From NCBI RefSeq assembly GCF_021398715.1, contig NZ_CP090347.1, positions 1,054,001-1,118,000 of the forward strand: a DNA stretch of 64,000 nucleotides, in the 5' to 3' direction. The translations under genes were made by a program, and so were the position numbers. The DNA is from Microbacterium binotii. GTDB lineage: Bacteria > Actinomycetota > Actinomycetes > Actinomycetales > Microbacteriaceae. Positions 14,931 to 53,081 of the stretch are shown here, piece after piece. A model generated the notes under the pieces. That model made no database searches, was not told where the DNA came from, and saw only the letters and a list, made by a program, of their open reading frames with translations. Positions within the stretch are counted from its first letter, which is position 1, and every line of letters starts with the position of its first letter.

Positions 14931-17471
14931 ATGCCTGAAGATTTCACCCCCGACGAGGGCCGCGACGCCTTCGACGACTTCCTCTCGCGCTACCTCGCAG
15001 GTGAGCGCGGACGCGCGGCGCGGTCGATCGATCTGTCGCGCTACCTCAGCGCCCGCACGCAGGAGACACTGCAGGATGCGGGGCGTTTCGCCCTCGCACG
15101 TGGCCAGCACGAGCTGGATGCGTTGCACGTGCTCCGCGAGATCGTGCGCGTCGACCAGGTGCGCGACGCGATCGCCCGACTCGGTGTCGATCCCGAGAGC
15201 ATCGTCCGCGAGTCGGAGCAGCGTCTGCCGGCCAGCGCCGACGTGGCCGACGTCGACAGCGCGGTGGTGACGACGTCGGTGCAGCGCGCCCTCTTCCACG
15301 CGTTCCAGGTCGCGCGTTCCTCCGGCTCGACCTACATCGACCCGGAGCACCTCTTCTTCGCGCTGGTGCTGGCGCAGGACACGCCCGCCGGCCAGATCCT
15401 CGCGCGCGCCGGCGTGACGGCGGAGGCGCTCACGCAGAGCGTGCGCGAGACCGTGACCGGTGGCGATCGCGCTCCGGAGCAGGCGGCCGCATCCGAGCCC
15501 GCCACCATGCTGGAGCGCTACGGGCGCGACCTCACCTCCCTCGCCGAGGCGGGGGAGCTCGACCCGGTGATCGGCCGAGCGGACGAGATCGAGCAGACCA
15601 TCGAGATCCTGAGCCGTCGCACGAAGAACAACCCCGTGCTCATCGGCGAGGCCGGTGTCGGAAAGACCGCGATCGTCGAGGGGCTCGCCCAGGCGATCGT
15701 CGCGGGTGATGTGCCCGAGCAACTGCGCGGCAGCCGCGTCGTCTCCTTGGATCTTCCCGCGATGCTCGCGGGCGCCCGCTACCGCGGCGACTTCGAGGAG
15801 CGCTTGACCGCGACGATGACCGAGATCGCCGAACGCAAGGGCGAGCTCATCGTCTTCATCGACGAGGTGCACACCGTCGTCGGCGCGGGCGCCGGCAGCG
15901 ACGGCGCGATGGATGCCGGCAACATCCTCAAGCCCCGCCTTGCTCGTGGCGACCTGCACCTGGTGGGCGCGACCACGCTCGCCGAGTACCGCACCATCGA
16001 GAAGGATCCCGCGCTGGAGCGTCGGTTCCAGCCGGTGAAGGTGGGGGAGCCCTCGGTCGAGGATGCGGTGCGGATCCTGCACGGGCTGCGCCCCGCCTAC
16101 GAGCAGCACCACGCCATCACCTACACCGACGACGCGTTGCGTGCCGCTGTCGAGCTCAGCGACCGCTACCTGAGCGACCGCGTCCTGCCGGACAAGGCGA
16201 TCGACCTCATCGACCAGGCCGGAGCACGACTCCGGCTGCGGCTGGGCGTCGCGGTCGACGTGTCCGAGCTCATGGCGCAGCTGGCCACGCTCGAGGCGGA
16301 CAAGAACGCAGCGGTGGCGGCTGAGCGCTACGAGGACGCGATGCGTCTGCGCGACGAGATCGCCGATGTGCAGCGCCGCATCGACGAGGCGACCCGTCGC
16401 GACGCGGTGCGCGGCGAGCAGGTCGTGGATGCCGAGCACATCGCCGCCGTCATCAGTCGCAGCACGGGCATCCCGGTGTCGCGTCTGACGGAGAGCGAGC
16501 GCGGGCGGCTGGCAGGACTCGAGTCCGAGCTGCACGCTCGGGTGATCGGTCAGGATGCGGCGGTCGCCGCCGTCGCGACGGCGGTCCGGCGCAACCGCAC
16601 CGGTATGGGCGACAGCCGCCGACCGGTCGGGTCGTTCCTCTTCCTCGGACCCACGGGTGTGGGCAAGACGGAGCTGGCGAAGACCCTCGCATCCTCACTC
16701 TTCGAGGACGAGAACGCCGTGATCCGCTTCGACATGAGCGAGTTCGGCGAGCGCCACACGGTCTCCCGCCTCGTCGGCGCCCCTCCCGGATACGTCGGAT
16801 ACGACGAGGCGGGTCAGCTGACCGAACGGGTGCGTCGCGCCCCGTACTCGGTGGTGCTGTTCGACGAGATCGAGAAGGCGCATCCCGACGTGTTCAACCT
16901 GCTGTTGCAGGTGCTCGACGACGGTCGGCTGACCGACGGCCAGGGGCGCACGGTCGACTTCCGCAACACCGTCGTCATCATGACCTCGAACATCGGCAGC
17001 GAGTTCCTCGCATCGCGCTCCGGCGCGATCGGGTTCATCGCCGACGGCGGCGGGGCGACCGGATTCGGCGACGAGAGCGAGCTGCGTGCGCGTGTCATGG
17101 GCAAGCTTCGCGAGGCGATGCGGCCGGAGTTCCTGAACCGCATCGACGAGATCGTGCTGTTCCGCAAGCTCGAGAAGGCGCAGCTTCGCAGCATCGTGTC
17201 CCTCCTCCTGGAACAGAGCGCAACCCGGCTGGCGCGGCGTGAGATCTCGTTCGAGGCGACCGAAGCGGTCGTGGACTGGCTGGCCGAGCACGGCTACGAG
17301 CCCGAGTACGGCGCACGACCGCTGCGCCGGCTCATCCAGCGGGAGATCGACGACCGTATCGCCGACCTGCTCGTCTCCGGCGAACTGAGCGATCAGGGTG
17401 CCGTGCGCATCGACGTCGTCGACGGTCGGCCGGTGGCTGCGGCCGTGGTCCGCAGCGCCGTCGCCGCCTGA
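14931..17471 (+). CDS. ClpC-like AAA+ protease ATPase subunit
   Basis: An 846-residue Hsp100 unfoldase. Order: N-terminal Clp repeat domain (about 55-175), AAA+ D1 with Walker A GEAGVGKT near 239, a UVR motif around 454-480 ([13 protein letters not shown]), then D2 with Walker A GPTGVGKT near 574 and the sensor/arginine-finger region, and the C-terminal D2-small domain. The UVR-length middle domain instead of the long ClpB coiled coil, and an IGF tripeptide at 700-702 where ClpA/C proteins dock on ClpP, argue for a ClpC-type protease partner. Start ATG 14931 has AGGAGAAC upstream; a HAIR-like operator precedes it. A terminator follows. Confidence 0.85.
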
Positions 17472-38361: not shown

Positions 38362-39297
38362 TCAGATGCTCAGCAGCGTCGCGAGGCCGACGATCGAGCC
38401 CACGAACACGACCGCCGAGACGCCCGCGAGCACCGTGAGACGGGTGCGGGTGGCACGGCGCCGGGCGATCCGGGCCGCGAGCCCACCGTCGCCGATGTCG
38501 ACGACCGGGGATGCGGCGGCGGTCGCCGGCGCGGACGTGATCGTCGGCGTGCGGATCGCATACCGCTCGCGTGCGGGCGTGCGATCGGTCTCGGCATCGG
38601 GAGCGAACGAGGTGGTCTGCCTCGCGGCACCCCGGCGTGCGCGCGTGAGACGCGGCGAGGCGCCCGCCGTCGCCCCGCGCAGCGACAGGCTCGTCGCGTC
38701 GTCCGCTACGGCGTCGCGCGGACGCAGCACGGTGTCGTCCGCGTCCGCATCCGTCGGCCGGTCGCGGCGGCGCAGCAGCGTCGCGTCCTGCGGCTCGTCG
38801 CGGGGACGCAGGACCGTGTCGTCCTCATCGAGCGGGTCAACGGACGCGGGTGAGCGAGGGGTGAGGATCGTGTGCTCGTCCTCGTCCTCCGCATGAGCGG
38901 CGGGGGTCGGCAGCGAACGGGCGACCACCACGGTCGCGTCCGTCGGCGGAGCGGGCCGGCGCACCAGCAGGGTGCCGTCTTCAAGTTCATCCGAGGGGGG
39001 TGCCTCTTCGGGCGACGGAGCCTCGGCCTCGGCCGGACGCCGCACCAGCGCGGTGCGGTCCTCCACGTCCGCCGCCGTGACCGTCGCTGCGGTCGGCGAA
39101 CGGTCGACGATCACGGTCTCGTCGACGGGCGGAGCCGGCGTCTCGCGCGACACGATGGCGGTGGCATCGGTCGCCTCCGCGGCGGCGGACGCGTTGCGTC
39201 GGTCGCGTCGGCTCACGAGCTGGGTGCTGTCTTCGGGCTGGTCGGTCGCACCGGGCTCGCGTCGTGAGAGGCGGGTGCTGTCGTCTGGCTCGGTCAT
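38362..39297 (-). CDS. tail-anchored protein with twelve D-x-T-x-(LIV)-x-x-R repeats
   Basis: A 311-residue protein of no family I know. Residues 1-207 hold twelve copies of a short motif whose threonines are T8, T25, T46, T61, T82, T109, T122, T143, T161, T173, T189 and T202; examples are DATAIVSR, DETVIVDR, EDGTLLVRR and DDTVLRPR. Spacing between copies varies from 12 to 27 residues, filled with Ala/Pro/Glu linkers, so the array is probably disordered. A basic stretch (276-286) precedes one membrane helix at about 288-310, so the array should face the cytosol. It ends the kinase operon, its ATG overlapping the FHA gene stop by 4 nt. I infer a multisite phosphothreonine scaffold. Confidence 0.9.
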   Translation of the reverse strand: MTEPDDSTRLSRREPGATDQPEDSTQLVSRRDRRNASAAAEATDATAIVSRETPAPPVDETVIVDRSPTAATVTAADVEDRTALVRRPAEAEAPSPEEAPPSDELEDGTLLVRRPAPPTDATVVVARSLPTPAAHAEDEDEHTILTPRSPASVDPLDEDDTVLRPRDEPQDATLLRRRDRPTDADADDTVLRPRDAVADDATSLSLRGATAGASPRLTRARRGAARQTTSFAPDAETDRTPARERYAIRTPTITSAPATAAASPVVDIGDGGLAARIARRRATRTRLTVLAGVSAVVFVGSIVGLATLLSI

Positions 39298-40241
39298 GCG
39301 TCCCCCACGAAGCGGATGCGCGCACCCCCGGCGAGCTCCGCGCTGGCGCCCTCGCGTACTTCGACCGCGCGGTCCGGCACGAGCAACCGCGCGACGCCGT
39401 CCGCGTCGATGACGGCCGTCCCACCGGGCGTCGCGAGATCCTCGATCTGTACGCGGGTACCGTCGGTCCAGATCTTCACATGCGCACGGGAGACGTCGCG
39501 TGAGACGTCGCCGAGCGCCACCAGGGTCGGGAGGTCATCGCCTTCGACGCGGGAGCTGCGCGGTCCGCGCCCGACCAGCATCGTGCCGTGGATCGGCACG
39601 ATGTCGCCGCCGGGCAGCTCGATGGCGCGCGGGGCTCGCGGGGTGCGCGGAGCGGGTTTCGGAGCGAGTGCGCTCGAACTCGTCACGATGGTCTCGTCGT
39701 CGGCGGGATCGGATGCGGCAGGGCGCGGTGCAGGGGGTGCGGGGGCGGGAGGTCTGGCGGCCGGAGGAATCGGAGGGCGCGCCACGGCGGGGCGCCCGCG
39801 GAGCATGACGCCCGCAGCCGTCGTCGGCCCGACCCGTACGGGACGCTCCGGCGTCGGCCCCAGATCGAACAGCTTCGGTTCCGCGTCCGGGGCGCCGGCC
39901 CAGGCGCGCACGACGGATGCCGCCTCCACCTCGCGCCAGGTGTGGGCACCGACGCCGTCCACGCGCCACACCCGGCGGGAACGGTCTTCGAAACGGAGCA
40001 CGAACTCGCCGCGAACGAAAGCGGTCAATCGGTCGTCGTCCAGAGCGACCACGGCGAAGGCCGGCACCGCGGCGATGCCGTCGGCGAGCAGGGCGTCCAG
40101 GATCTCGGGTGTTCCGGGCATCGTGCCCGTCGACAGCACGCGTCGCGCAGCGGCGACCGCGGCGTCGCCCCCGACGATCACCGCGAGCGTGTCGGTGGCG
40201 ATCGCGGGCAGAGGCCCTTCGAACCAGGTCCGCTCAGCCAC
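39294..40241 (-). CDS. FHA-domain protein
   Basis: A 315-residue cytosolic protein. The C-terminal FHA domain (about 218-312) has MLVGRGPRSSR, then VSRDVSRAHVKIW with the conserved Ser/Arg/His around 251-254, and DLATPGGTAVIDADG, so it should bind phosphothreonine. The N-terminal 115 residues form an alpha/beta domain without clear assignment. The Pro-rich linker contains DDETIVTSSS with T184, matching the D-x-T-x-x-V motif of the next gene, a possible intramolecular FHA ligand as in GarA. GTG 40241 overlaps the PP2C stop by 8 nt and its own stop overlaps the next ATG by 4 nt. Confidence 0.92.
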   Translation of the reverse strand: MAERTWFEGPLPAIATDTLAVIVGGDAAVAAARRVLSTGTMPGTPEILDALLADGIAAVPAFAVVALDDDRLTAFVRGEFVLRFEDRSRRVWRVDGVGAHTWREVEAASVVRAWAGAPDAEPKLFDLGPTPERPVRVGPTTAAGVMLRGRPAVARPPIPPAARPPAPAPPAPRPAASDPADDETIVTSSSALAPKPAPRTPRAPRAIELPGGDIVPIHGTMLVGRGPRSSRVEGDDLPTLVALGDVSRDVSRAHVKIWTDGTRVQIEDLATPGGTAVIDADGVARLLVPDRAVEVREGASAELAGGARIRFVGDA

Positions 40242-41073
40242 GGATCGGCCGCTCTCTTCGAGAGGTGATGGTGTCCACCTCGATCGACTGCACCGCCGCC
40301 TGCTCGCTCGTCGCGAAGCCGCCCGTCACCTCGTCGGCACGGGGAGCGAGTCCTCCTGAGCGCACGTCCACCACGACGGCGCTGATGTTGTCGCGTCCGC
40401 CGCGGGCGAGCGCCTGGTCGACGAGCGCGTAGGCGGTCTGCTCGGCGGAGCCGCCGAGGCTGAGCCCGGCCAGGACGGCCTCGTCGCTCAGATCGTTGGA
40501 CAGACCGTCCGAGCACAGCAGCATGCGCTCACCGGTCACGATGGGGGAGAGCCAGTAGTCGGCCGGGCTCTGGCTGTCGCCGACGGCGCGGGTGATGACG
40601 TTGCGTCCCGGGTACGTGGACATCTCGGAGCGGCTGATCCTTCCCGCATCCACCAGCTCCTGCACGACAGAGTGATCGACCGTGAGCTGCTCGAGGGAGC
40701 TGCCGACCAGCCGGTACACCCGCGAGTCGCCGATGTTCACGACGAGCCACGCGTGCGATCCGTTCTGCACCACGGCGACCAGGGCGGCGAGGGTGGAGCC
40801 GGCGCCGCGCGCGTGGCGCCCCGCGACCTGAGACACCGCGGCGTGGGCGGACTCGACAGCGGTGACCACTTCCTCCGGCTGCACGTCGTCGCGACCGACG
40901 AGGTGGCGGAACGCATCCACGACCGCGGCACTGGCCAGATCACCCGCCTCGTGGCCTCCCATGCCGTCGGCGACGAGGAACACGGGGTACTGCGCGAGCA
41001 CCGCATCCTCGTTCAGCTTGCGTACGCGGCCGACGTCGGAGCGCGCTCCGGCCATGACGACGATCCCGGTCAT
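40234..41073 (-). CDS. PP2C-family Ser/Thr protein phosphatase
   Basis: A 279-residue PPM-type phosphatase. Metal-binding motifs are complete: RKLNEDAV, VADGMGGHEAGD, ARGAGSTLAAL, NIGDSRVYRL, TVDHSVVQELV, LCSDGLSNDL and GGRDNISAVVV. Unlike PstP of mycobacteria it has no C-terminal membrane helix, so it is cytosolic. It should remove phosphates placed by the kinase encoded at the front of the same operon. ATG 41073 has GGAAGGGG upstream and overlaps the transglutaminase stop by 4 nt (ATGA). The frame continues upstream to 41160 only inside the neighbouring gene. Confidence 0.95.
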   Translation of the reverse strand: MTGIVVMAGARSDVGRVRKLNEDAVLAQYPVFLVADGMGGHEAGDLASAAVVDAFRHLVGRDDVQPEEVVTAVESAHAAVSQVAGRHARGAGSTLAALVAVVQNGSHAWLVVNIGDSRVYRLVGSSLEQLTVDHSVVQELVDAGRISRSEMSTYPGRNVITRAVGDSQSPADYWLSPIVTGERMLLCSDGLSNDLSDEAVLAGLSLGGSAEQTAYALVDQALARGGRDNISAVVVDVRSGGLAPRADEVTGGFATSEQAAVQSIEVDTITSRRERPIRG

Positions 41074-43571
41074 GGTCGTCCCCTTCCATCTCGCGACGCA
41101 GCCTCGCGCAATCCGCGTGCGAATGAGCGTAGCGACAGCCGAGCCTTCCAGCGCGCCCACAGGCCGCCTGTGGATGCGAAACGCTGTCGTTCCTGGTCGA
41201 TGAGCTCCCAGAACCGTGCGGATTCCTCTTCGGTGGTGGTTCCCGGAGCGAACACCGCCCGGTCGGCGAGAGCCGCGAGAGTCGCTGGATCAGCGGTCTC
41301 CGCGTCGCCGACGGCGGTCGCGGTCTCCGACCGGGTCGCGGCGGGAGGGATGCGGTGGCCGTGGTCCACGGCGGTGTCGAGGTACTCCTCCCAGCCCCCG
41401 ACGACCCGGTCGACCGGGTCCGCAGACGAGCGCCGGGCCCGTCGACGCATGATCTTCGCCGCGAGCACCGCGATGGCGGGCATCAGCAGGATCAGCAGCG
41501 CGAAGATCGCGATGCCGGAGATGCGCAGAGTGGCCCACAGCCACGCGAGGTCCACCGGATCCGTCGGCTCGTCGCTCTGCGGCGGCGAGGCGTCGGCGGG
41601 ATCCGCCTCGGGAGGCAGGACGGTGTCGGCCTGCTCCGGCTCGACCGGGGTCATGTTCTGCGGGTCGCGACGCTGCTGGACGTCGGGCGAGAGCGGCACG
41701 CGGTGCTGCGGTGTCGTGTCGATGGCCGTCCAGGAGCCGTCCGCGTCGCGCACCTCGATCCACGCCGACAGGTCGCCGCTCGTGCACGTGCCGTCTTCGC
41801 ACACCGCCAGATCCGCGTCGTCGCTGCTCAGGCGGGTGCCGAGCACGACCCGGGCAGGAAAGCCGAGGTGATCCGCGATCAGGGCGCCGGCCACGGCGAA
41901 CTGCTCGTCGTCTCCCGCGGCGGCGACCAGCAGGGAGTCATCGGTTCCGCCGGTCTCGTTCTGCTTCTTGAGCAGCTGCGTGAACAGGTCGCCGATGCGG
42001 TCGGTGGAGTGCCCGCTGCGGCTGGGTTCGAACGTGTAGTCGCCGAGCTTCTGCGCCCACACCGGGACGGCGCCGGGATCGAACGCCAGCGCGTGCGAGA
42101 GGAGCCCGCGCGCCCGCAGGCGTGAGATCAGCTCGACCAGGCCCGCGCCGCCCGAGGGCGCGTCCTGCGCGCTCACCCATTCCTCGAGCGACTCGGGGAC
42201 GAAAGCCGGGTCGAACGTTCCGGAACGGGAAGGGGTCAGCGTCCCGGGATCGCGAGGAGCGTCTGCGACCACCCCGGTCTGCGTGTAGCTGACGCCGGAG
42301 GCGAGCCCCGGGTCCGACAGCTCGACGCCCGTGGCGGAGTCCGGGTTGTAGAAGAAGCCGTCAGAGAGCGCGGCCCGCGTCGATCCCGAGAAATCGATCG
42401 AGGTGAGATCTCCCACGGCGGGCACCCAGATGCCCGTGTAGTCGCCGATCGTGAACGTGGCGGAGGCGCGGTCGCCCGTGTCGGCGGGCAGGGAAGCGGG
42501 AACCCGTCGGAACTCCGTGCTGTCGGAGCGGTCGCCGGTCTGGGGGTCGGTGGCCCGCATGACCCGGCCGTCGTAGTAGCTGAGAGTCGCCAGACGCACC
42601 CGATCCACGCCGGAGTCGGCGGCGACCGTGAACAGCACATCGTCGAACCGCTCGTCGGAGAAGGCGGCGCGGTAGTCGGCGAGGGGGCTCAGCGTCTGAC
42701 GCACCTTCAACACCGGGTCGACCGCCGTGCGCAGCACGTCGCGGGAGGAACCCGCCACTGCCCAGGGCGCGAGCGCGAGTCCCAGGGTGAGGGCGATGAC
42801 GAGCATTCCAGCGGCGAGGGCGATGCGACTGCCGAGGGTGCGCGCGACACGGACGGAGGAGCGCACGCCGCTCGCCGAGCGCGCGACGCGCAGGGCGACC
42901 CGACGCGTGTGGACGTTGCGCCACACGTACCAGGCGAAGCCCGTGAGCAGCGCGCCGAGCCCGACCGTCGCCTCCCAGACGCCATCCAGTTCCCACGGCC
43001 CGATGCGCCACGAGCCGTCCACGGCGCTCGATCCGAACAGCACGCCGAACGCGGTGATCAACAGCGCGAGCGGCGCGGCGAGCACCCAGAGCCTGCCGGC
43101 GCGCAGCGCCAGCAGGAGAGCCAGGGTGCCGAGAGCGAGCATCAGGAAGAAGGGGAGCGCGAGGGTCGCCTGGTACACCCCGAGCGGCAACTCGAGCGTC
43201 AACAGGTTCTTCCACCCCGTGACGGGTGCGCTCACGACGCCCCAGACGCCCGGCAGGATCGTCGCCGGGTCGGTGATCATCGTCGGTGCGGCGACCGGAA
43301 CGCCGATGACGACGTACGCGCCCGCGGTGATGAGGGCGAGCTGCCACCAGCGCAGCGGGCGCCAGACGGCGAGCAGGGCGATCCCGGTGGAGAGCGCGAT
43401 CGCCACCCCGGCGACGAGCACGAACCAGCCGCTGCGGTAGATCGCCCACGCGGATGCGGCGCCGATCGCCAGAAGGGCGTCGATGAAGGCGATGTTGCCG
43501 ACCAGGAACGCGATGTCGCGTTCGGTGCGGCGGGGGCGGCGCGCGCGGGCGCGTGCGTCGGGGGCGCTCAT
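41070..43571 (-). CDS. transglutaminase-fold membrane protein with missing catalytic residues
   Basis: An 833-residue protein of the TgpA plan: about six N-terminal membrane helices (20-180, 200-220, 250-270), a large outside domain (about 275-675), one more helix (683-706) and a cytosolic tail with a DUF4129-like helical region ending SLRSFARGLREAA. The transglutaminase core is at about 548-620: FPARVVLGTR and AWIEVRDADGSWTAIDTTP are clear. The catalytic Cys position is Asp555 (GDDEQFA), the His position is Ser602 (DLSAWIEV), and only Asp618 remains. It is therefore probably not an active transglutaminase. C591 and C596 may form a loop disulfide. Overlaps with both neighbours are 4 nt. Confidence 0.9.
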   Translation of the reverse strand: MSAPDARARARRPRRTERDIAFLVGNIAFIDALLAIGAASAWAIYRSGWFVLVAGVAIALSTGIALLAVWRPLRWWQLALITAGAYVVIGVPVAAPTMITDPATILPGVWGVVSAPVTGWKNLLTLELPLGVYQATLALPFFLMLALGTLALLLALRAGRLWVLAAPLALLITAFGVLFGSSAVDGSWRIGPWELDGVWEATVGLGALLTGFAWYVWRNVHTRRVALRVARSASGVRSSVRVARTLGSRIALAAGMLVIALTLGLALAPWAVAGSSRDVLRTAVDPVLKVRQTLSPLADYRAAFSDERFDDVLFTVAADSGVDRVRLATLSYYDGRVMRATDPQTGDRSDSTEFRRVPASLPADTGDRASATFTIGDYTGIWVPAVGDLTSIDFSGSTRAALSDGFFYNPDSATGVELSDPGLASGVSYTQTGVVADAPRDPGTLTPSRSGTFDPAFVPESLEEWVSAQDAPSGGAGLVELISRLRARGLLSHALAFDPGAVPVWAQKLGDYTFEPSRSGHSTDRIGDLFTQLLKKQNETGGTDDSLLVAAAGDDEQFAVAGALIADHLGFPARVVLGTRLSSDDADLAVCEDGTCTSGDLSAWIEVRDADGSWTAIDTTPQHRVPLSPDVQQRRDPQNMTPVEPEQADTVLPPEADPADASPPQSDEPTDPVDLAWLWATLRISGIAIFALLILLMPAIAVLAAKIMRRRARRSSADPVDRVVGGWEEYLDTAVDHGHRIPPAATRSETATAVGDAETADPATLAALADRAVFAPGTTTEEESARFWELIDQERQRFASTGGLWARWKARLSLRSFARGLREAASRDGRGRP

Positions 43572-44932
43572 GACTGCGCACTCCGAGCGAGGATGTGACG
43601 GAGGTCCTCGAGCAGACCCATCGTCACGATCGAGGCGCCGCCGATGGTGCGGAAGCCGGGCTCCGCCGAGGGGTCGCAGACGATGGCGGCCACGCCCGTG
43701 TCGGCGGGGAAGGCGAGGGCGGCGTGCTGCAGCATCCGCAGCGTCGGGGTGGATCCGCAGATCAGGAACCCGATGGAGACGTCGCGGTGCGCCTCCACGG
43801 CCAGGCTCGCGACGTCGCGGAGTCCGGTGATGCGCTCGGCCTTCTCCACACCGGCGAGCTCGTCGAGCAGGGTGCGCGCGGTGATGGTGGCGAGATCCCG
43901 GGAGGAGCGCACGGCTCGGCGGGCGAACTCCGGCACCTCGCCGCCGACGACGACGGAGACGTCGCGTCCGTCGCGGATGCCGCGCACACCCAGCGAGGCG
44001 GCGGCGCTGACGGCGAGCTCGAACTCCTCGTCGTCGGCGTAGTCCTCTTCGCCCGTCGCCAGCACGATCACCATCCGTGAGCGGCGGGACTCCTCGTACT
44101 GGCGCACCATGAGGGTCCCGGTCTTCGCCGTGGACTTCCAGTGGATCTGGCGCTGCGAGTCGCCGGGAGCGTACTCCCGGATGGCGTGGAACGAGATGTC
44201 GGCGTCCACCACGAGGGAGGAGGGGTTGCCTTCGAGGTCCTTGATGAACCCGGTCGCGGTGCTCGGGATCGCGGTCGTCACGGGGTGGACGTAGAGCGTG
44301 TGGATGTCCTCCCACACGACCTCGCGGCGCAGGATGCCGAGCGGGTCGCCGCGGACGGCGCGGGCGGGTCCGATGTCGAGCACACCGCGGCGCAGCCCCG
44401 GAATCGTCAGCACCTCGTCATGCGCGGCCTCGTGGCGCAGCAGCGGGATCGCGACGTCGACGAGGCCCTCGCCGACGGGCACGTCGACCCGACCGGGCAG
44501 GGCGACGCCCTTGCCGACGTTGACGACGCGCAGGGAGAGCGCGACCTCGCTGCCGGCGATCACCCGATCGTGCGCGAGGCCGAGGCTCACGCGGTAGGCG
44601 CGCGCACCGAACAGGAACGGTGCCGCGCACAGGACGAGAACGGCGGCGACGGCGCCGGCCAGGACGAACTCGATCCACCCGAACACGATGCCCAGGCTCA
44701 GACCGATCGCGGCGGCTCCGATGAGCAGCCACCCTCCCGCGGTGACGGTGTCGCCGACAGCGCGGGCGCTGCGGGCCACGGCTCGTCGTACGCGCCGCCA
44801 GAAGCGGATGCCGCCCACGACGATGACGGTCGTGGAACGCGACGTGTCGTAGCGCGTGCGCGTGCTCCCGGCGGTCGACGTCGAGGTGGACGTCGAGCCG
44901 ATCCGGGTGATGCGGGAGGAGGAATCGGTCAC
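43568..44932 (-). CDS. DUF58 protein with Ser/Thr-rich N-terminal tail
   Basis: A 454-residue membrane protein. Residues 1-36 contain 21 Ser or Thr, ending STTVIVV; then a basic stretch (43-57), two membrane helices (about 66-84 and 86-106), and a DUF58 domain in the cytosol with the hallmark IREYAPGDSQRQIHWKSTAK near 245 and a vWA-like fold after it. DUF58 proteins nearly always pair with MoxR ATPases and transglutaminase-like proteins, as here. By the positive-inside rule the Ser/Thr tail faces the cytosol and could be phosphorylated by the operon kinase (inference). GTG 44932 overlaps the MoxR stop by 4 nt. Confidence 0.93.
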   Translation of the reverse strand: MTDSSSRITRIGSTSTSTSTAGSTRTRYDTSRSTTVIVVGGIRFWRRVRRAVARSARAVGDTVTAGGWLLIGAAAIGLSLGIVFGWIEFVLAGAVAAVLVLCAAPFLFGARAYRVSLGLAHDRVIAGSEVALSLRVVNVGKGVALPGRVDVPVGEGLVDVAIPLLRHEAAHDEVLTIPGLRRGVLDIGPARAVRGDPLGILRREVVWEDIHTLYVHPVTTAIPSTATGFIKDLEGNPSSLVVDADISFHAIREYAPGDSQRQIHWKSTAKTGTLMVRQYEESRRSRMVIVLATGEEDYADDEEFELAVSAAASLGVRGIRDGRDVSVVVGGEVPEFARRAVRSSRDLATITARTLLDELAGVEKAERITGLRDVASLAVEAHRDVSIGFLICGSTPTLRMLQHAALAFPADTGVAAIVCDPSAEPGFRTIGGASIVTMGLLEDLRHILARSAQS

Positions 44933-45894
44933 GCGGACTCGCGCTGCGTCGGGGGAGCGACGTCGAGCATGACCTGACCGATCACCGCGCCGGCGGTCAC
45001 GCCGTCGAACTCCGCCTCGGGGTCGAGGATGAGGCGGTGGGCCAGCACGGGCTCGGCCAGAGCCTTGACGTCGTCGGGGGTCACGTAACCGCGGCCGTGC
45101 GCCAGAGCCCAGGTGCGCGCGGCGCGGGTGAGTGCGAGTGCACCGCGAACGCTGACGCCCAGGCGCACCTGCGCGGCCTGGCGGGTGGCTTCGACGACGC
45201 GCGCGATGTAGTCCAGCACGAGCGGGTTCAGATAGGCGTCCTGCGCGATCTGGCTGAGCGTCTGCACGGCCTCGGGCGTGATGACGGCGCCCACCTCGCG
45301 CTTGCCGGCGGCGCTGCCCTCCAGGATCCGCACGGTGGCGGCGTGGTCGGGGTAGCCCAGCGACGTCTTCATCAGGAACCGGTCGAGCTGCGCCTCGGGC
45401 AGGCGGTACGTCCCGGCCTGCTCGACGGGGTTCTGGGTCGCGACCACGAGGAACGGGCTTCCCACACGCCGCGAGACGCCGTCGACCGTGACCTGACCCT
45501 CCTCCATGACCTCCAGCAGCGCCGACTGGGTCTTGGGGCTGGCGCGGTTGATCTCGTCGGCCAGGACGATGTTGGCGAAGATCGGGCCCGAGTGGAACTC
45601 GAACTCGCCGCGCTTCTGGTCGTACACCGTGATGCCGGTGACGTCGCCGGGAAGCAGGTCGGGCGTGAACTGGATGCGGGAGCTCGTGCCCTGCACGCTC
45701 TCGCCCATCGCGCGCGCCAGCGAGGTCTTTCCGGTGCCGGGGAAGTCCTCCAGTAGCAGGTGCCCCTGCGAGACGAGCGCGGTGAAGGCGAGCTCGATGA
45801 CGTGGCGCTTGCCGAGCACGACCTGCTCGACGTTCTCCACGAGGGCGGAGAACGTCTCCTGGAACCAGGCGGTCTGTTCTGGGGTGACGGTCAT
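44929..45894 (-). CDS. MoxR-family AAA+ ATPase
   Basis: A 321-residue ATPase. Walker A is EDFPGTGKTSLARA (about 48-61), Walker B/adjacent motif VLADEINRASPKTQSALLEVMEE, sensor 1 VVATQNPVEQAGTYRLPEAQ, and the C-terminal lid VSVRGALALTRAARTWAL with sensor 2. MoxR proteins act as chaperones that mature or activate vWA/DUF58 partners; the DUF58 gene follows with a 4-nt overlap. The in-frame extension to 46017 lies inside the big surface protein and is rejected; ATG 45894 is 4 nt after that gene's stop. Confidence 0.95.
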   Translation of the reverse strand: MTVTPEQTAWFQETFSALVENVEQVVLGKRHVIELAFTALVSQGHLLLEDFPGTGKTSLARAMGESVQGTSSRIQFTPDLLPGDVTGITVYDQKRGEFEFHSGPIFANIVLADEINRASPKTQSALLEVMEEGQVTVDGVSRRVGSPFLVVATQNPVEQAGTYRLPEAQLDRFLMKTSLGYPDHAATVRILEGSAAGKREVGAVITPEAVQTLSQIAQDAYLNPLVLDYIARVVEATRQAAQVRLGVSVRGALALTRAARTWALAHGRGYVTPDDVKALAEPVLAHRLILDPEAEFDGVTAGAVIGQVMLDVAPPTQRESA

Positions 45895-45898
45895 CGAT

Positions 45899-48800
45899 TC
45901 AGCCTCCGTTGTTGGGGGGAGTGTTGGGATCGGAGGGCGGGGGCGTCTGGGTGCCCGAGCAGCCTCCCCGACCCGTGTCGAGATTGAAGGAGATGTCGCC
46001 ATAGCCGGCGGCTGCATCGGTGAAGGTGAAGGTCGCCTTCGCCGTCGCCCTCGTGGTGCCGTTGGGAACGATCATCCTGTCGTCCCCGGGAGGGATCTCC
46101 TGCGGGAACAGTCCGCCGAACGCGCCGTCGCTGTAGTACTTCGGGGTCGTCGGGTCGATCACGAGTTTTCCGACCGCGCCCGGCTGCTGGTCGATCGTCG
46201 CCTTCAGCTCGCTGCCCACGACGCACTGGTTGATCCGGGCGTTGCCCACATCCACCTGCTTGGCACGCGTCGGGTCCGCGGGCTTGATGGCGGTGGGCTG
46301 ACCGCACCGCGAGAGATCGGAGCCCCGCACGCAGTACTTGACCTGCATCGAGCCCTCCTGGCCCATGGCCGGCTGCTGCCACTGCGTCGACTCGCCCTGG
46401 TGGCCGAGGTACACCGTGTCGAAACCGTTCGCGTTCGGCACGTCCACGCTGCGCACGAGGTACGTGCCGTCGCCGTTGCCCCAGCCGTTGGGGATGCTGT
46501 AGGTCGGGTTCTGCGGGACCGGAGCACCCGCTTGGTCCCACGCCCACCCGTCGGCGGTGGCGCTCTTCGCGGCCCCGAAGCCGTTGCTCACGCACGCGCC
46601 GACGGTGTACTTCTGGTTCTCCTGCAGGCCGCTGATCGTGGTCGAGGTGGACGTCTGGCCGTTGACCCGGGCCTGTAGGTTCTGGCCGTTGTTGTCCACG
46701 TCGCAGGAGAAGTCGCCGAAGCCCGCACGGTAGGCGACGTAGATGATCTCGCGGCCGCGGTTGCTGCCGTTCATGTCGACGTTGGGTCCGGTCACGACGA
46801 GCGCGTTCTTCTGCTCCGCCGCGATCCCGACGCCGTCCGTGCGGGGCAGACCCGCCACCTGCACGCCCACGTTCTTCGTCTGACCCACCGATCCGCTGCC
46901 GTCCGGGGCCGAGTTCGCGCTGTTGGCCGTGACGGTGATGGTCGCCTGCCCGACCGGCAGAGTGACGGTCAGTTCGGTCGTGTCGCCGCCCGAGCGCGGC
47001 ACATCCCCGTTCGCTCCCGTGACGGAGTACGTGCGCACCTCGGGATCGACGTTCTGGATGCGGATCTTCACCGCGCCCGCGTCACCTGTCGTGCGCTGCC
47101 TGTCGTAGATCGGATCGGCGGTGACGTTGCCGACGGCCGGCTGACGGTAGGCCCACGCCTGGACGGTGACCCCGGTCCGGGACTCGCCGACGGAGTTGAA
47201 CGCGCGGGCCTCGTAGGTACGGCGGTCGCCGTTGCTGGCGACCTGGAAGGGCTCGCACACTCCGGCGGCGGAGCACGTGGTGACCTGCTGGCCACCTTGC
47301 AGGATGTGGAAGCCCTGCAGCGCGGGGTAGGCGTTGCCCGCGGCGCCCGGCTCGACCCGCAGAGTGATCGTGCGGTCGCCGAAGCCGGTCTGGGTGACGT
47401 TGTTCGGAGCCTTCGGGTACCCCTGGAGATCGAGCGTGACCTGGCCGTTGCGGTCGCCCGCCGACTGGCGCCCCTGCGCGTCCTCGACGGTGAAGCCGAC
47501 CGTGCAGCGCGTGCCGTCGGCATCCGGCGACCAGTTCGCCTGGATCGCGGTGGAGCTGGCGACGCCGAAGGAGACGCCGGCGCAGCTGCCGCCGGAGGCG
47601 CCGCCGACGGCGACGAGCTTGAGGGGCGTGCCCGGAAGCGGGTTGATCTCGCCGCCCTGACCGATGACGTTGATCGTGCACCCGTTGCCCGCGGACTGCA
47701 AGCACGACTGGGTGAGCGTCGCGCCCTTCGGCAGCGTCGAGGGAGCCGGACCCACCTGGAGTGCGAGGGTGGCGGGACGCACGTCGCGGTGGCTCGGCAG
47801 GGTGACGGTGACCGGCTCCTGCCGGCCGGGGCGTGCCGCATCCCGCGCGGTCACGGTCACCTGCGATCCAGAGGTCTGCACCGTGAACTGATCGCCCGCG
47901 TACGAGGTGGCGTACTGCAGCGCGCCCCAGTCCTCCGTGCCCGCCCACGAGGTCATGTCGCGCAGCTCGAATGTCGCGGAGGAGCCCGGGCTGACCGTGA
48001 GCGACGCTGCGCGCAGCTCTGGCTGCGGGTCTTCGGCGATGACGTCGACGCGGATCGTCAGGTACGTGTAGGTGTCCTGACCGACCAACCGCACCGGCAC
48101 CGTGCAGCTGTCGGTCCACGGCGCCCCTGCCCCCGCGGAGTAGCGGACGGTCGTCCCGGAGGTGAGCGCGCAGGTGGCCTGTGCACGGCCACCGCCCGCG
48201 GCGACGCGGGACGCGTCGATCTCGATGTCGGCGCCCGGGGGCAGCGCCACGGCGCGCGCGAGGTCCACATCCACTGTGCCGCGCTCATCGACCTGCACAG
48301 AGGCGGCCGACGCGCGCAGGGTCAGCTGCAGATCGTTCGTCCCCGGCACCTTGAGGAAGCCGTAGGAGGTCACTTCGCTGCCGTCGAAGGCGGTGCCGGT
48401 CACCTGGAACGGGATGAGCTCGGTCTTGTCGGGCAGGCGGCCCGAGATCTTGCGGCCGTCGACCGAGATCCCGTCGGGGTCGCCCCAGAGCGAGAGCTTC
48501 AGCGAGGAGACGTCGCCGGCGTTCCAGGAGACCTTGCCCGTGAGCACGTCGACGCCGTCGGGGAAGTCCTCGCGCGTCTCGACGGTCAGCGTGGTGTCGC
48601 GCACGGCGGGGTAGTCGGGCACGGGGTCGCGCACGACCTTCAGCACGATGAGGCCGATGGCGGTGTCGCCCTGCGCGTTTCGCACCGTGTACGCGAACGA
48701 GTAGGTGCCGAGCTGCGTGCCGGCCTTCAGGCGCACCTCGTTGTCCTCGACGCCCTGCATCATGGCGTCCATCGCGCGATACTCCTCGGAGCCCACATCC

Positions 48801-51800
48801 GCGTTGGGTCGCACATCGATGACCTCGAGCGTCGTGCCCGAGGGGTCGAGGTCGTTGTCCGCGGGACGCACGACGGCCTCGGAGTCCGCGCCCGCCTGCA
48901 CCTGCACGTAGTCGCTGTAGGTCACCGGTGCGGGGCTCGACTCCGCGTCCAGGACGCCGACACGCACCTCGCCGACGCCGACGGCGCCGAGGGTGTCACG
49001 CACCTGGTACGTGAAGGAGACCTGGCCCTTGTCGCCGGGCGAGCTCGTGTAGAGGATGGCGTCGCCCTCGGCGGAGATCGTCGCCGAGCCGCGGTCGGGC
49101 TGCGCCGAGATGCGGTCCAGTGTCACGGCATCCCCGTCGGGATCGACGGCGAAGCGGTCGAACGGGATCGACACGGTGGCGCCGCTCAGCACGCGCCCGA
49201 CGAGTGTGTGGGGCACCGGGGCGGAGTTCGAGTCCTCGGGCAGGACGGTGACGGTCACCTTGGCGGTGTCGGTCATGTCCGGGAAGCCCATACGGTAGAT
49301 CGTGTAGCCGAGTGTGTAGGTGCCGGGCTCGCTGGGCGCGAGATAGCGCAGCAGGCGGCCGGTGGCGAAGGCGAGGCCGGTGTTCGACTCGTTCGTGATG
49401 GTCGAGGGGTCGATGGCGAACTGCGCGCCGGCCGGGGCCGTGTCGTTGTCGAGGACCGGGATGTCGATCTGCGCGCCGGCGCGCACGGTGGCCGCGTCGT
49501 CGACGGCGATCGGGGGCTCCGCCGTCGGCGCGGGCAGCAGCACGACCGTGGTCTCACCGGTCGTGGTCGTATAGCCGTTGCCCGTACCGTCGGACACCGT
49601 GTACGTGACCACGCCGAGCGTTCCCGGCTGCGCGTTGTCGGTGGAGCCCGCGACACGCAGCATGCTCTGGCCGACGAGGTCCACGCTCAGCGACGCGCTG
49701 TCGTCGGGGGTGACGACGACGTCACTGGCCAGGAGCACGAGACCTGCAGGATTCGAGACCGGCGAGATCACGTCGATGGTCGAGTCCTCGCCGGGGCGCA
49801 CGAAGGCCGTGAGCGGCGGCGTGGAGATCTGCGTGGCGGCGGGATCGACGACGGTCACCCTGACGGTCCCGGTCGCCTCGGCGAGCGCGTCGGCGACGGT
49901 GTACTGCACCAGATAGGAGCCGGGGGCGGCGGCGGAGAAGACGAAGGTGCCGGCGACACTGTTGACGGTGATCTGAGCCGCGGCGTCCGTGATCGAGTTG
50001 GCGCTGCGCATCGTGATGGCACCGTTCACCCCGGTCACGTGCGGTCGCACATCGATCGTGGTGGGAGCGCCGATCGTGCCCACGGCGGCGAACGAGGCCG
50101 CCGTCAGCTGGGGGCTCGGGGTGATCGCGATCTCGAGAGGCTTCTCCGTAGACAGCCCCTGCGCGTCGGTGACCGTGACGAGGATCGTCACAGACTGGGC
50201 GTCGGCCTGGTTCGGGTTCGGGTGCTGGAAGGTGATGGTTCCCTGCGGGTCGAGGGCGACCGAGCCGATGCCGCTCTGGTTCACCGCCGAAGAGATGTAG
50301 AGCGGATCGCCGTCAGGGTCGACCCAGCCCTCGAGCACGTTCACCGAAACGGTGCCGCCGGGCACGACCTGCGGCGACGGCCAGGTCGCGAGGCAGGCTT
50401 CCACACCGCACCAGACGGGCGCGCTGTTCGCCCCGGGCGGCGACACGGTCAGTGTCACGGTCGCCGGTTGCGACGTGAGCCCGTCTGTGGTCGTGCCGTC
50501 GGTGATGCGGTACCGGAACGTCGCCGATCCGCTCGCCTCCGGGGACAGGCGCACGACGAGCTCCTGCTGCTCGTTGGAAACGGAGACCGTTCCGAACGCG
50601 GGATCCAGTCCCTCGACGGATGCGGCCACGATGCTCAGCACGTCCTCGTTCGGATCGTGGTCGTTGAGCAGGGCGGGCAGCACGGCGCTGCGCCCGGCGC
50701 GCACCCCGAACGCGTCGTCGACGGCGACGGGCGGCTTCGGATCGATCACACGCTCGGCCTGGATGTCCTCCTGCTGCTGCGTCGGAACGTCCTGGTCGGA
50801 GTCCCACTGCTGCGAGGACGGCACGAGGGCGCCGTTCGGAAGCGTCCAGACCCAGCCGGAGCGGGTCTCGTTCAAGATCATGCGCGAGCCGTTGCTGAGG
50901 AACTCCGGCGCGACCTCGTCGCCGAGCGAGCCTCCGGCGTAGTCCAGGTCGCTCTGTCCCGCATCCGAGGACCACAGCGTTCCCTGCGCCTGGCTGTTGG
51001 GCAGCCAGGCCGCGTACATCACGCCCTTCGCCTCGGCCGGGGCTGCGGGGGTGCCCTGCGCGGCGTCGACGACGCGCTCGGGACCCGAGCCGTCGATGGG
51101 AACGGAGACGAGCCCGGTCGTGTCGGCGATGTAGACCTGGTCGCGCGCCGTGCCCGACTTCTGCAGGACCCCGCCGATCGTCCCGGTCTCGAGGGGCTGA
51201 TCGCGCCCGCGCATCCAGAGCAGACCCGAGTCGGGCTCGAGGAGCGCCCAGGTCGTGCCCACGGCGCTCAGCGTCGCGGATGCCGGTGCGTCGGACACCG
51301 TGTCCGAGCCCTCGATCTTGCCGGTGCGGGCGTCGGCGCGCACCACGCGCTCCTCGGCGGACGAGTAGGCGTAGACGATGCCGTCCACCCCGACCGCGAT
51401 GCTGTCGGCGACGAAGACGGGTCGTTCCTCGCCCTCTGCGACCTGCGTCCCGGCGTACGGATCGACGGGTACGGTGCTGCTCGGAGAGGCGAGCGAGCCG
51501 GCGAAGACCGCCCCGTTGTCGGTGCGATAGGCGATCGTGTCGCCCGTGGAGACGACGTCGACCGTGCCCGGAGGAGTGTTCTGGAACGCGTCTTCCGCGT
51601 CGGCGTTGAGATCGGCCGGCATGGCCATGTCCACGTCCGCGAAGCGGGTGTCGCCCTCGGCATAGACCAGCAGGCGGTCAGCGTTCTGCACGAGCGCGCT
51701 GGGGTTCTCCACCTGCTTGACGGTGTCGATCTCGCCGACGGTCGTGTTCACGCGGGCATATCGCCGACCCTCGCCGGACTGCATCGCCCAGATCGTGCCG

Positions 51801-51940
51801 TCGTCGGGCGGCGTCTGCTGGGCGTCGAAACCGGGCCACACCACGGCGAGCGTCGTCACGATGGCGAGCACGGCCGCGACGGAGCCGCCGATGATCCAGC
51901 CGCGGCGATCGGAGAGCGGGGTGCGGGGGGCCTCGGCCAT
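45899..51940 (-). CDS. giant single-pass surface protein with Ig/cadherin-like repeats
   Basis: A 2013-residue protein. Cytosolic tail 1-13, one membrane helix (about 14-36, signal anchor), then an outside part. Residues about 45-390 look like a beta-propeller-like sensor region (repeated strands with TIWAMQSGEG, VYAYSSAEERVV, MYAAWLPNS). Residues about 400-1400 are Ig/cadherin-like repeats with the PPVAVDDAFGVRAG / PPIAVDDAATVRAG signature, LLNDHDPNEDVL and WVDPDGDPLYIS loops that resemble calcium sites. Residues 1500-1960 include fibronectin-like repeats with paired Cys. The C-terminus is Pro/Asn-rich without a sorting motif. It starts 2 nt before the kinase stop boundary (1-nt gap) and likely acts as adhesin, sensor or scaffold. 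Confidence 0.9.
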   Translation of the reverse strand: MAEAPRTPLSDRRGWIIGGSVAAVLAIVTTLAVVWPGFDAQQTPPDDGTIWAMQSGEGRRYARVNTTVGEIDTVKQVENPSALVQNADRLLVYAEGDTRFADVDMAMPADLNADAEDAFQNTPPGTVDVVSTGDTIAYRTDNGAVFAGSLASPSSTVPVDPYAGTQVAEGEERPVFVADSIAVGVDGIVYAYSSAEERVVRADARTGKIEGSDTVSDAPASATLSAVGTTWALLEPDSGLLWMRGRDQPLETGTIGGVLQKSGTARDQVYIADTTGLVSVPIDGSGPERVVDAAQGTPAAPAEAKGVMYAAWLPNSQAQGTLWSSDAGQSDLDYAGGSLGDEVAPEFLSNGSRMILNETRSGWVWTLPNGALVPSSQQWDSDQDVPTQQQEDIQAERVIDPKPPVAVDDAFGVRAGRSAVLPALLNDHDPNEDVLSIVAASVEGLDPAFGTVSVSNEQQELVVRLSPEASGSATFRYRITDGTTTDGLTSQPATVTLTVSPPGANSAPVWCGVEACLATWPSPQVVPGGTVSVNVLEGWVDPDGDPLYISSAVNQSGIGSVALDPQGTITFQHPNPNQADAQSVTILVTVTDAQGLSTEKPLEIAITPSPQLTAASFAAVGTIGAPTTIDVRPHVTGVNGAITMRSANSITDAAAQITVNSVAGTFVFSAAAPGSYLVQYTVADALAEATGTVRVTVVDPAATQISTPPLTAFVRPGEDSTIDVISPVSNPAGLVLLASDVVVTPDDSASLSVDLVGQSMLRVAGSTDNAQPGTLGVVTYTVSDGTGNGYTTTTGETTVVLLPAPTAEPPIAVDDAATVRAGAQIDIPVLDNDTAPAGAQFAIDPSTITNESNTGLAFATGRLLRYLAPSEPGTYTLGYTIYRMGFPDMTDTAKVTVTVLPEDSNSAPVPHTLVGRVLSGATVSIPFDRFAVDPDGDAVTLDRISAQPDRGSATISAEGDAILYTSSPGDKGQVSFTYQVRDTLGAVGVGEVRVGVLDAESSPAPVTYSDYVQVQAGADSEAVVRPADNDLDPSGTTLEVIDVRPNADVGSEEYRAMDAMMQGVEDNEVRLKAGTQLGTYSFAYTVRNAQGDTAIGLIVLKVVRDPVPDYPAVRDTTLTVETREDFPDGVDVLTGKVSWNAGDVSSLKLSLWGDPDGISVDGRKISGRLPDKTELIPFQVTGTAFDGSEVTSYGFLKVPGTNDLQLTLRASAASVQVDERGTVDVDLARAVALPPGADIEIDASRVAAGGGRAQATCALTSGTTVRYSAGAGAPWTDSCTVPVRLVGQDTYTYLTIRVDVIAEDPQPELRAASLTVSPGSSATFELRDMTSWAGTEDWGALQYATSYAGDQFTVQTSGSQVTVTARDAARPGRQEPVTVTLPSHRDVRPATLALQVGPAPSTLPKGATLTQSCLQSAGNGCTINVIGQGGEINPLPGTPLKLVAVGGASGGSCAGVSFGVASSTAIQANWSPDADGTRCTVGFTVEDAQGRQSAGDRNGQVTLDLQGYPKAPNNVTQTGFGDRTITLRVEPGAAGNAYPALQGFHILQGGQQVTTCSAAGVCEPFQVASNGDRRTYEARAFNSVGESRTGVTVQAWAYRQPAVGNVTADPIYDRQRTTGDAGAVKIRIQNVDPEVRTYSVTGANGDVPRSGGDTTELTVTLPVGQATITVTANSANSAPDGSGSVGQTKNVGVQVAGLPRTDGVGIAAEQKNALVVTGPNVDMNGSNRGREIIYVAYRAGFGDFSCDVDNNGQNLQARVNGQTSTSTTISGLQENQKYTVGACVSNGFGAAKSATADGWAWDQAGAPVPQNPTYSIPNGWGNGDGTYLVRSVDVPNANGFDTVYLGHQGESTQWQQPAMGQEGSMQVKYCVRGSDLSRCGQPTAIKPADPTRAKQVDVGNARINQCVVGSELKATIDQQPGAVGKLVIDPTTPKYYSDGAFGGLFPQEIPPGDDRMIVPNGTTRATAKATFTFTDAAAGYGDISFNLDTGRGGCSGTQTPPPSDPNTPPNNGG

Positions 51941-51941
51941 C

Positions 51942-53081
51942 TCAGGCTCCTCCGAGGACGAGGACGGTCACCAGGACGGCTGCCGCCGCGACGAGGGCGG
52001 CGCCTCCCACGAGCAGGGCGATCATCCCGCCGGACAACCCTCGCCCGCGCGGCGATGCGCCGGCGAGGACCGTGCCCTCGTCCGGACGGCGACCGCCGCG
52101 GTCGCGTGAGCGCACCGGCCGGAGCGACTCGTACTGGACGTTCGGGCGCACCGGGCCGCGAGCCCGATCATCGGCGAAGTTCACCGGGGTGCCGGCGGAG
52201 GCCCACTCGTCCACGGCGACCTCCATCGGCGTGTGCGGCAGGCCGAGCTCGTGCTGGATGAGCTGCAGCTCGTACGCGAACTGGGCGGCCGAGGGATGGC
52301 GGCCGGCGGGGTCGCGGTTCATCGAGCGCGACAGCACCGCCTCGAGGCTCGCGGGGACGTCGGCCCGGCCGATGGGGGTGTAGGCGGCGCGACGGATGCG
52401 GGCCTTCAGCTGATCGCGGCCGTTCTGGCCGCTGCCGGGGCGCTCGAAGGGGCTGCGTCCCGCCAGCAGCGAGTAAACGGTGGCCCCCAGTGCCCAGACC
52501 TCGGCGGGGACGGAGCCGGCGATGCGCTCGTCGATGATCTCGGGCGCGCTCCACGGCACGGACATGGCGAACACCTCGTCATCGCCGCGCCCGCCCACGG
52601 CGGTGGCGATGCCGAAGTCGGCGAGGACGGGAGCGCCGAAGGCGGTCACCAGCAGGTTGGAGGGCTTGATGTCGCGGTGGAGCAGACCCGAGCGGTGCGC
52701 CGTCTCCAGGGCGGAGCCGATCCGGATGCCCGCCTGGAGCACCTCCGCCAGCGGGATCTCCTCCCGCCGATAGCGCGAGCCGAGGGATCCGGGGCAGTAC
52801 TCCATCACCAGGTAGGGCCGCCCGTCGGAGGAGATGCTCGCCTGGTAGATCGTGAGGATGGACGGATGGGCGCTCAAGCGCGCCATCACGTCGGCCTCCG
52901 CGTTGAACATACGCAGCAGACCGTCGTCGACGATGTCCTCGAGGAGGACCTTGACGGCGACCGGGCGGCGCGGCATGTCCTGCTCGAACAGGAAGACGTC
53001 GGCGAAACCGCCCGTGCCGAGAGGACGGACGTAGGTGAAGCCGGGAAGAACGGGCGGTGCCGCGGGCAGTCTCTGCGCCAC
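51942..53081 (-). CDS. membrane-bound Ser/Thr protein kinase
   Basis: A 379-residue Hanks-type kinase, first gene of the operon. GTGGFADVF (22-30) is the Gly-rich loop, K44 in VAVK the ATP lysine, HRDIKPSN carries D137, DFG D155 and APE 179-181 follow. The activation loop (DFG to APE) has GGRGDDEVFAMS, with an acidic DDE and no central Thr pair as in PknB. Residues 291-350 are a basic juxtamembrane linker with DEGTVLAG (T337) that resembles the threonine-array motif. One membrane helix (352-376) ends the protein with almost nothing outside. GTG 53081 has GGAAGGGGG upstream; longer starts overlap the divergent gene. Confidence 0.93.
   Translation of the reverse strand: MAQRLPAAPPVLPGFTYVRPLGTGGFADVFLFEQDMPRRPVAVKVLLEDIVDDGLLRMFNAEADVMARLSAHPSILTIYQASISSDGRPYLVMEYCPGSLGSRYRREEIPLAEVLQAGIRIGSALETAHRSGLLHRDIKPSNLLVTAFGAPVLADFGIATAVGGRGDDEVFAMSVPWSAPEIIDERIAGSVPAEVWALGATVYSLLAGRSPFERPGSGQNGRDQLKARIRRAAYTPIGRADVPASLEAVLSRSMNRDPAGRHPSAAQFAYELQLIQHELGLPHTPMEVAVDEWASAGTPVNFADDRARGPVRPNVQYESLRPVRSRDRGGRRPDEGTVLAGASPRGRGLSGGMIALLVGGAALVAAAAVLVTVLVLGGA

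Follow-up and report, generated by a model that had tools for sequence, protein, structure and literature searches.

Organization of the Array Locus

The window analyzed here, a stretch of 64,000 nucleotides from Microbacterium binotii (NZ_CP090347.1), harbors a run of genes in one direction, all on the (−) strand, in the order kinase, giant Ig/cadherin-repeat protein, MoxR, DUF58, transglutaminase, PP2C, FHA and array. The run comprises a Ser/Thr kinase with a hydrophobic C-terminal segment (51942..53081), a 2013-aa Ig/cadherin-repeat protein that takes the place of FN3 of the PFNA operon (45899..51940), a MoxR AAA ATPase (44929..45894), a DUF58 protein (43568..44932), a TgpA-type membrane transglutaminase (41070..43571), a PP2C phosphatase (40234..41073) and a 315-aa FHA protein made of an N-terminal domain, a linker and an FHA domain (39294..40241). 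The array gene (38362..39297) is the last of the run, and its first 4 bases are shared with the end of the FHA gene. The PFNA-type order of kinase, surface-repeat protein, MoxR, DUF58 and transglutaminase in the same direction is present in the window, while a Pfam search (E 0.001) detected no fn3 in the 2013-aa protein, which contains Big_9 and cadherin-like repeats instead. Because no fn3 was detected in the large protein, we class the window operon as related to that of bifidobacteria and not as the PFNA operon itself.

Motif Copies in the Array Protein

The translated array protein is 311 aa in length and consists of 12 Thr motifs, a conserved juxtamembrane segment and a predicted C-terminal membrane helix. 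The strict pattern [DE]xTx[LIV]xxR, which was fixed after this protein had been seen, matches 12 times, at Thr8 (DDSTRLSRR, 39259..39285), Thr25 (EDSTQLVSR, 39208..39234), Thr46 (TDATAIVSR, 39145..39171), Thr61 (VDETVIVDR, 39100..39126), Thr82 (EDRTALVRR, 39037..39063), Thr109 (EDGTLLVRR, 38956..38982), Thr122 (TDATVVVAR, 38917..38943), Thr143 (DEHTILTPR, 38854..38880), Thr161 (EDDTVLRPR, 38800..38826), Thr173 (QDATLLRRR, 38764..38790), Thr189 (ADDTVLRPR, 38716..38742) and Thr202 (DDATSLSLR, 38677..38703), all on the (−) strand. When residues 1–264 were shuffled 10,000 times, the mean number of strict motifs was 0.11 and the maximum 2. The copies are irregularly spaced, 12 to 27 residues apart, and position −2 is Asp in 11 and Glu in one, with an aliphatic residue at +2 and Arg at +5 in all 12, and Val at +3 in six. 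The first-pass annotation of this DNA had described twelve copies at these Thr, with acidic residues before and Arg after them and six reading T-x-x-V, and the translation agrees with it on each count. Its description of a protein made almost only of the repeated motif was overstated, since the repeats occupy residues ~5–207 with linkers between copies, and the last third is free of repeats and harbors a conserved ERYAIRT-type motif (38548..38568, (−)) and one predicted transmembrane helix (38365..38439, (−)). Of the 102 array proteins from related operons, 91 have a YxxR motif of this kind (ERYAIRT, YGPR etc.) ahead of the helix, between 110 and 20 residues from the C-terminus (20 after shuffling).

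No Pfam or NCBIfam family passed its curated cut-off for the window array protein, in line with the earlier remark that no described family resembles it. The divergent arrays L052, L054 and L066 matched no Pfam family, and the single NCBIfam match among them was far below the cut-off (17.8 of 770 bits). A search with the L052 array against a large protein set gave four matches, of which one labelled Ipomoea batatas was excluded as likely contamination or chance.

Distribution and Copy Number in Related Operons

A homology search with the array alone across 58 genomes found no relative beyond the array itself, because the array diverges fast, and gene order was therefore used instead. A direct search returned 17 relatives of the array protein besides itself, the closest named one being from M. 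neimengense (79% identical). Operons from other genomes were fetched with the transglutaminase gene as the landmark, and their genes were called by a custom codon-usage script that is likely to have missed some. Operons whose TgpA scored >600 bits against the family profile were taken as family operons (n = 137), and array candidates in them were recognized from their place after TgpA and from a hydrophobic helix at the C-terminus, without use of the motif. An array-type protein was found in 102 of the 137 operons, mostly from Microbacteriaceae; the records searched include Microbacterium, Cryobacterium, Leifsonia, Glaciihabitans and Microterricola, and array counts were pooled over genera. 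As 48 of the array loci came from one genome source and 54 from another, with partial overlap (for example, L037/L115), the fraction 102/137 refers to loci and not to species. Among the 35 operons without an array, 14 lie on stretches that stop before the array position could be read, at the latest just past the FHA gene, and the other 21, in which the array is lacking or was missed, count against reading the array as a hub. The idea that paralogous, lower-scoring TgpA operons also carry the array was rejected (0/20). Many Microbacterium genomes contain a second TgpA, ~35% identical to that of the window, and the second-TgpA operons that were fetched (L092 and L093) have no array at the operon end.

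The 102 array proteins were reduced to 92 distinct ones by merging identical sequences; before motifs were counted, the first 280 residues of kinase-fused array proteins were cut. The proteins L064_2 and L069_8 were left out at an earlier step. Strict copies range from 0 to 12 per distinct protein, with a median of 3, and the window's clade stands at the top of this range. Seven of the 92 contain no strict copy, while at least one loose motif is found in 90 and at least two in 85. With a median of 3 and seven proteins that have none, a long array is neither general nor needed by the operon. In f10, another family of the same taxonomic order, six loose motifs were counted in L072 and one in L073.

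The first-pass annotation had put the array where kinase, phosphatase and FHA protein are, and this company recurs, with an FHA gene in 100 and a PP2C gene in 61 of the 102 array-bearing stretches; the latter count led us to reject PP2C as a companion of every array. A kinase lies within 53 of these stretches, a count that is low because the stretches from one source are too short to reach it.

Disorder, Topology and Kinase Fusions

The AlphaFold model shows low confidence along the array, with block pLDDT of 40–55 up to residue 270, as for a disordered chain, followed by a confident helix at residues 273–310. In 11 of the 102 loci the array lies behind a kinase or kinase-like domain in the same protein. 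The fused domain has HRD and DFG in four loci (three distinct proteins) and is without HRD in seven, six of which are also without DFG and one of which retains DFG only. A kinase domain acting on cell proteins must be cytosolic, and therefore an array fused to it should be cytosolic too. The disorder of the array is well supported, and so is its cytosolic side, which had been proposed earlier and for which the evidence is the 11 fusion loci. In L040, L118, L120, L122, L124 and L128, the domain ahead of the array is kinase-like and lacks HRD and DFG by pattern; these six fusions are probably pseudokinase-array proteins.

Conservation of the Motif

Selection on the Thr of the motif is evident among close relatives. 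In nine of them, the motif Thr was kept in 106 of 107 cells, compared with 79 of 152 for the other Thr (17 positions) of the same region, where Ser was kept in 98 of 140, and positions −2, +2 and +5 were kept at 97, 98 and 99%, respectively. With twelve relatives the counts are 134/139 for motif Thr and 90/194 for other Thr. The first-pass annotation had named homologs that lose the Thr and keep the surrounding sequence as evidence against its reading, and the 106/107 and 79/152 counts are the reverse of that pattern.

Across 77 representatives of <60% identity, 283 strict Thr motifs were counted, against a mean of 3.7 and a maximum of 11 in 500 shuffles. Arg occupies +5 in 94% of the 326 loose motifs of this set, though positions +4 to +6 were allowed, and copies across the family follow the consensus D-D-x-T-(V/R)-(L/V/I)-(V/S/A)-x-R. 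Val at +3, on which the earlier reading as an FHA ligand had leaned, was rejected as a general rule, as the residue at +3 in these 326 copies is V in 33%, S in 32% and A in 15%; the constant positions are the aliphatic +2 and the Arg at +5, not Val at +3.

The center of the strict motif in the 92 distinct arrays is Thr in 331 cases, Ala in 30, Gly and Glu in nine each, Arg in eight, Val and Asp in five each, and Pro and Ser in four each, with other residues at three or fewer, despite overall contents of 1273 Ser and 1661 Thr in these proteins. Ser does not stand in for Thr at the motif center. Where motif Thr are lost, Ala and Ser replace them at 30:4, a ratio similar to the 40:7 of unconstrained Thr, and the only conclusion from it is therefore that Ser does no better than Ala; an avoidance of Ser beyond what mutation would give was rejected on the same ratios. 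As background, 473 unlabelled neighbor proteins contain eight strict Thr motifs and 54 Ser motifs.

At five free positions, copies from the same protein agree in 48% and copies from different proteins in 21% (51 representatives with at least three copies; permuted maximum 25%). Such dialects are exemplified by T-V-V-T in nine of the ten copies of L059 and by T-R-I-V in eight of the nine of L101. This likeness fits tandem duplication under a fixed consensus.

Candidate FHA Readers

The FHA domain of the operon FHA protein (39306..39626, (−)) keeps GR and S-R-x-H, and the Asn of S-x-N-G-T is replaced by Gly. Pfam FHA gave no match to this protein at E 0.001, while its relative P0042 passes PF00498. 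The AlphaFold model has a mean pLDDT of 76.9, and its top Foldseek matches are FHA domains, FhaA, OdhI and GarA included, with TM-scores by target of up to 0.81; the operon FHA protein is therefore predicted to have an FHA fold. An alignment of 19 sequences shows no variation at GR, S, R and H of the site, while the Asn of S-x-N-G-T is found in only four (L035, L036, L037 and L052) and Gly in 15, that of the window included. We take GR, S-x-x-H and N-G to be the residues of the FHA phosphothreonine site. The N-terminal ~115 residues of the same protein form a well-predicted domain of their own (block pLDDT 84–94). The whole model is also matched weakly in Foldseek by PP2C-like phosphatases, RsbX among them (TM by target ~0.4), and the N-terminal domain may be a degenerate phosphatase fold.

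Far from the operon, the genome of the window also encodes a DUF5684-FHA protein with canonical site residues and no motif copy. As the operon FHA protein is without the Asn of S-x-N-G-T, the reader may be this DUF5684-FHA protein, and either of the two could serve in the window species; the operon FHA protein, which the first-pass annotation had cast as the reader, is weakened in that role here by the loss of the Asn. A search of solved structures with one DUF5684-FHA protein gave no match at E 0.01. The motif-less DUF5684-FHA gene of the window genome lies at 2978341-2979495, within the stretch 2970000-2989000 (L192), in a type VII secretion locus beside WXG100, EccB, EccD and subtilase genes. 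EccB-like genes were also seen in L062, L066 and L070, where they share a stretch of 20 kb with the array operon, those of L066 and L070 being checked with Pfam.

Motif Copies in the Reader, Kinase and Phosphatase

A DUF5684-FHA protein is encoded in most array operons, as a TM-FHA label is found in 96 of the 102 stretches and the Pfam domains were checked on three of these proteins. The GR / S-x-x-H / NG pattern is kept in 111 of 125 DUF5684-FHA proteins. After similar segments were merged (107 to 73), the strict Thr motif was found within 63 residues ahead of the FHA domain in 59 of the 73 non-redundant linkers, whereas the same position gave Ser in 0/73, Ala in 3/73 and, in shuffles, a mean of 0.5 and a maximum of 3. 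The linker motif is nearer to the array of its own genome than to those of others (0.323 vs. 0.234; 38 loci, 0/1000 permutations), by a statistic that ignores relatedness.

The window operon also has motif-like copies outside the array gene. One lies in the FHA linker (DDETIVTSS, 39675..39701, (−)) and is kept in only four of the 19 sequences, that of the window included, so that it was rejected as a conserved switch. Others are found in the C-terminal tail of PP2C (EVDTITSRRE, 40252..40281, (−)) and in the juxtamembrane segment of the kinase (PDEGTVLAGA, 52056..52085, (−)). With looser patterns, chosen after the sequences had been seen, a Thr motif is present in 26 of 51 kinase juxtamembrane segments (shuffled 2.2; Ser 5) and in 22 of 43 PP2C tails (shuffled 2.3; Ser 4), while an alternative PP2C tail pattern gave 31/43 against a shuffled mean of 16.

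Proposed Role of the Array and Alternative Explanations

The array protein is likely to be a membrane-tethered, disordered, multi-site phosphothreonine hub for FHA readers. The phosphorylation, FHA binding, competition and threshold in the following scheme are steps that we infer. The Ser/Thr kinase of the operon would phosphorylate the Thr of the D-x-T-x-(L/I/V)-x-x-R copies, proteins with FHA domains would dock on the resulting phosphothreonines at the membrane, and the PP2C phosphatase would clear them. In one state, the DUF5684-FHA reader may be occupied by the phosphothreonine of its own motif copy, much like GarA/OdhI with its ETTS switch, which we assume to work by intramolecular binding of the phospho-motif by the FHA domain, and the array would then compete in trans. 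The copy number, from 0 to 12 strict copies with a median of 3, could set avidity or a threshold. The first-pass reading of the array as a multisite FHA ligand thus stands in part, with the conservation of Thr, the company of FHA genes and the cytosolic side in its favor, and the pT+3 rule and a generally long array against it. A fuller version, in which an evolvable pThr array, its copy number and dialect adjusted through tandem duplication, works with membrane FHA readers inhibited by their own single motif copy, the operon counts or thresholds kinase activity, and the array sometimes resides on an active kinase or a pseudokinase, is offered tentatively, as a possibility that we would not favor as a whole. 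In that version the array would be a new class of bacterial signaling part, and the motif shared by kinase, phosphatase, reader and hub would describe a closed phospho-circuit.

The proteins in which a kinase or kinase-like domain precedes the array, as well as the loss of the S-x-N-G-T Asn from the window operon FHA protein, would also suit a kinase/phosphatase buffer, in which the phosphorylated array is a competing substrate or a phosphate sink and FHA docking is unneeded. We consider such a buffer unlikely, since an FHA gene is found in 100 of the 102 array stretches and PP2C in 61 only, the DUF5684-FHA reader usually carries the same motif, and the near absence of Ser at the motif center follows more simply from a pThr reader than from a sink. 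The constancy of the FHA gene, together with the kinase domain joined to the array in some loci, likewise argues against unphosphorylated docking, by which the copies would be plain short linear motifs for the kinase domain, MoxR or FHA, with Thr as a contact residue. With acid before Thr and aliphatic and basic residues after it, the motif is similar to kinase sites measured in actinobacteria, and we regard such docking as quite improbable, though the strict +5 Arg and +2 aliphatic residue exceed what we would expect of a kinase site or an FHA ligand alone and PP2C is missing from 41 of the 102 stretches.

A structural spacer, that is, a charged disordered linker from the membrane to an unspecified end whose repeats are kept by tandem duplication and not by function, would agree with the wide variation in copy number and with copies that are more alike within (0.48) than between (0.21) proteins, as duplication would give. 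Duplication explains neither the retention of motif Thr (106/107) against other Thr (79/152) nor the same motif in FHA linkers, which makes the spacer very improbable.

To our knowledge, the FHA-kinase signaling described in bacteria consists mostly of one- and two-site switches, and a multi-site phosphorylation hub, if true, would be unusual among bacterial components. The array would also put an intracellular read-out on an operon of MoxR, DUF58, transglutaminase and a giant surface protein. Widespread, dedicated and lying beside its presumed kinase and reader, the array would offer a compact system for testing multi-site phosphorylation, avidity and threshold, for which natural variants with zero to twelve sites are available.

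Comparison with Known Systems

The SDT repeats of MDC1 are read by the FHA domain of NBS1, and the array similarly has several acidic Thr repeats, but MDC1 is a eukaryotic nuclear scaffold with no operon or membrane tether. GarA/OdhI combines an FHA domain with an ETTS phospho-switch at the N-terminus (PMC12321487, PMC2784874). The DUF5684-FHA reader resembles it in having a phosphorylatable Thr motif N-terminal to the FHA domain, whereas GarA/OdhI, in the portions of these papers available, has a single motif region in cis and no separate multi-copy membrane array. The array protein is without an FHA domain and the DUF5684-FHA reader contains a DUF5684 part in addition, so neither belongs to the GarA/OdhI family.

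Measured PknA-dependent pThr sites of M. tuberculosis favor an acidic residue at −1 and from −3 through −6, with Leu/Val at +3 and Lys/Arg at +4, according to the accessible part of PMC7164672; the array has a similar acidic-Thr-aliphatic-basic layout, but with +2 and +5 instead of +3 and +4. The same source reports 16 and 23 phosphosites for MmpS3 and FhaA, respectively, which gives an actinobacterial precedent for many-site phosphorylation; the accessible part of PMC7164672 does not describe these as repeats of one motif, and the two proteins are likened to the array by description only. No such array was found in the literature as judged by titles and the beginnings of abstracts, a coverage that is thin on subscription journals. 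We regard the array as a new, multi-copy and dedicated part that would build on the known FHA-phosphothreonine chemistry.

The PFNA operon of bifidobacteria is given as pkb2, fn3, aaa-atp, duf58, tgm, prpC, a hypothetical gene and fha in the partial texts of PMC8430577 and PMC10688814. It shares with the window operon the order of kinase, large surface-repeat protein, MoxR, DUF58 and transglutaminase, followed by phosphatase and FHA genes, but these texts name no array protein for PFNA. In L088 and L089, which have the kinase to transglutaminase order with no PP2C labelled, the gene after TgpA is a different one and free of the motif. The array was consequently rejected as the seventh, unnamed PFNA gene, with the proviso that these loci are not confirmed as bifidobacterial; the post-TgpA protein of L088 and L089 is perhaps the counterpart of that gene. 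The gene of L088 (4344-4946, (−)) encodes a protein of the Leucine Rich Repeat Variant type (Pfam LRV_2), and its counterpart in L089 lies at 15048-15827 (+), both after the transglutaminase gene.
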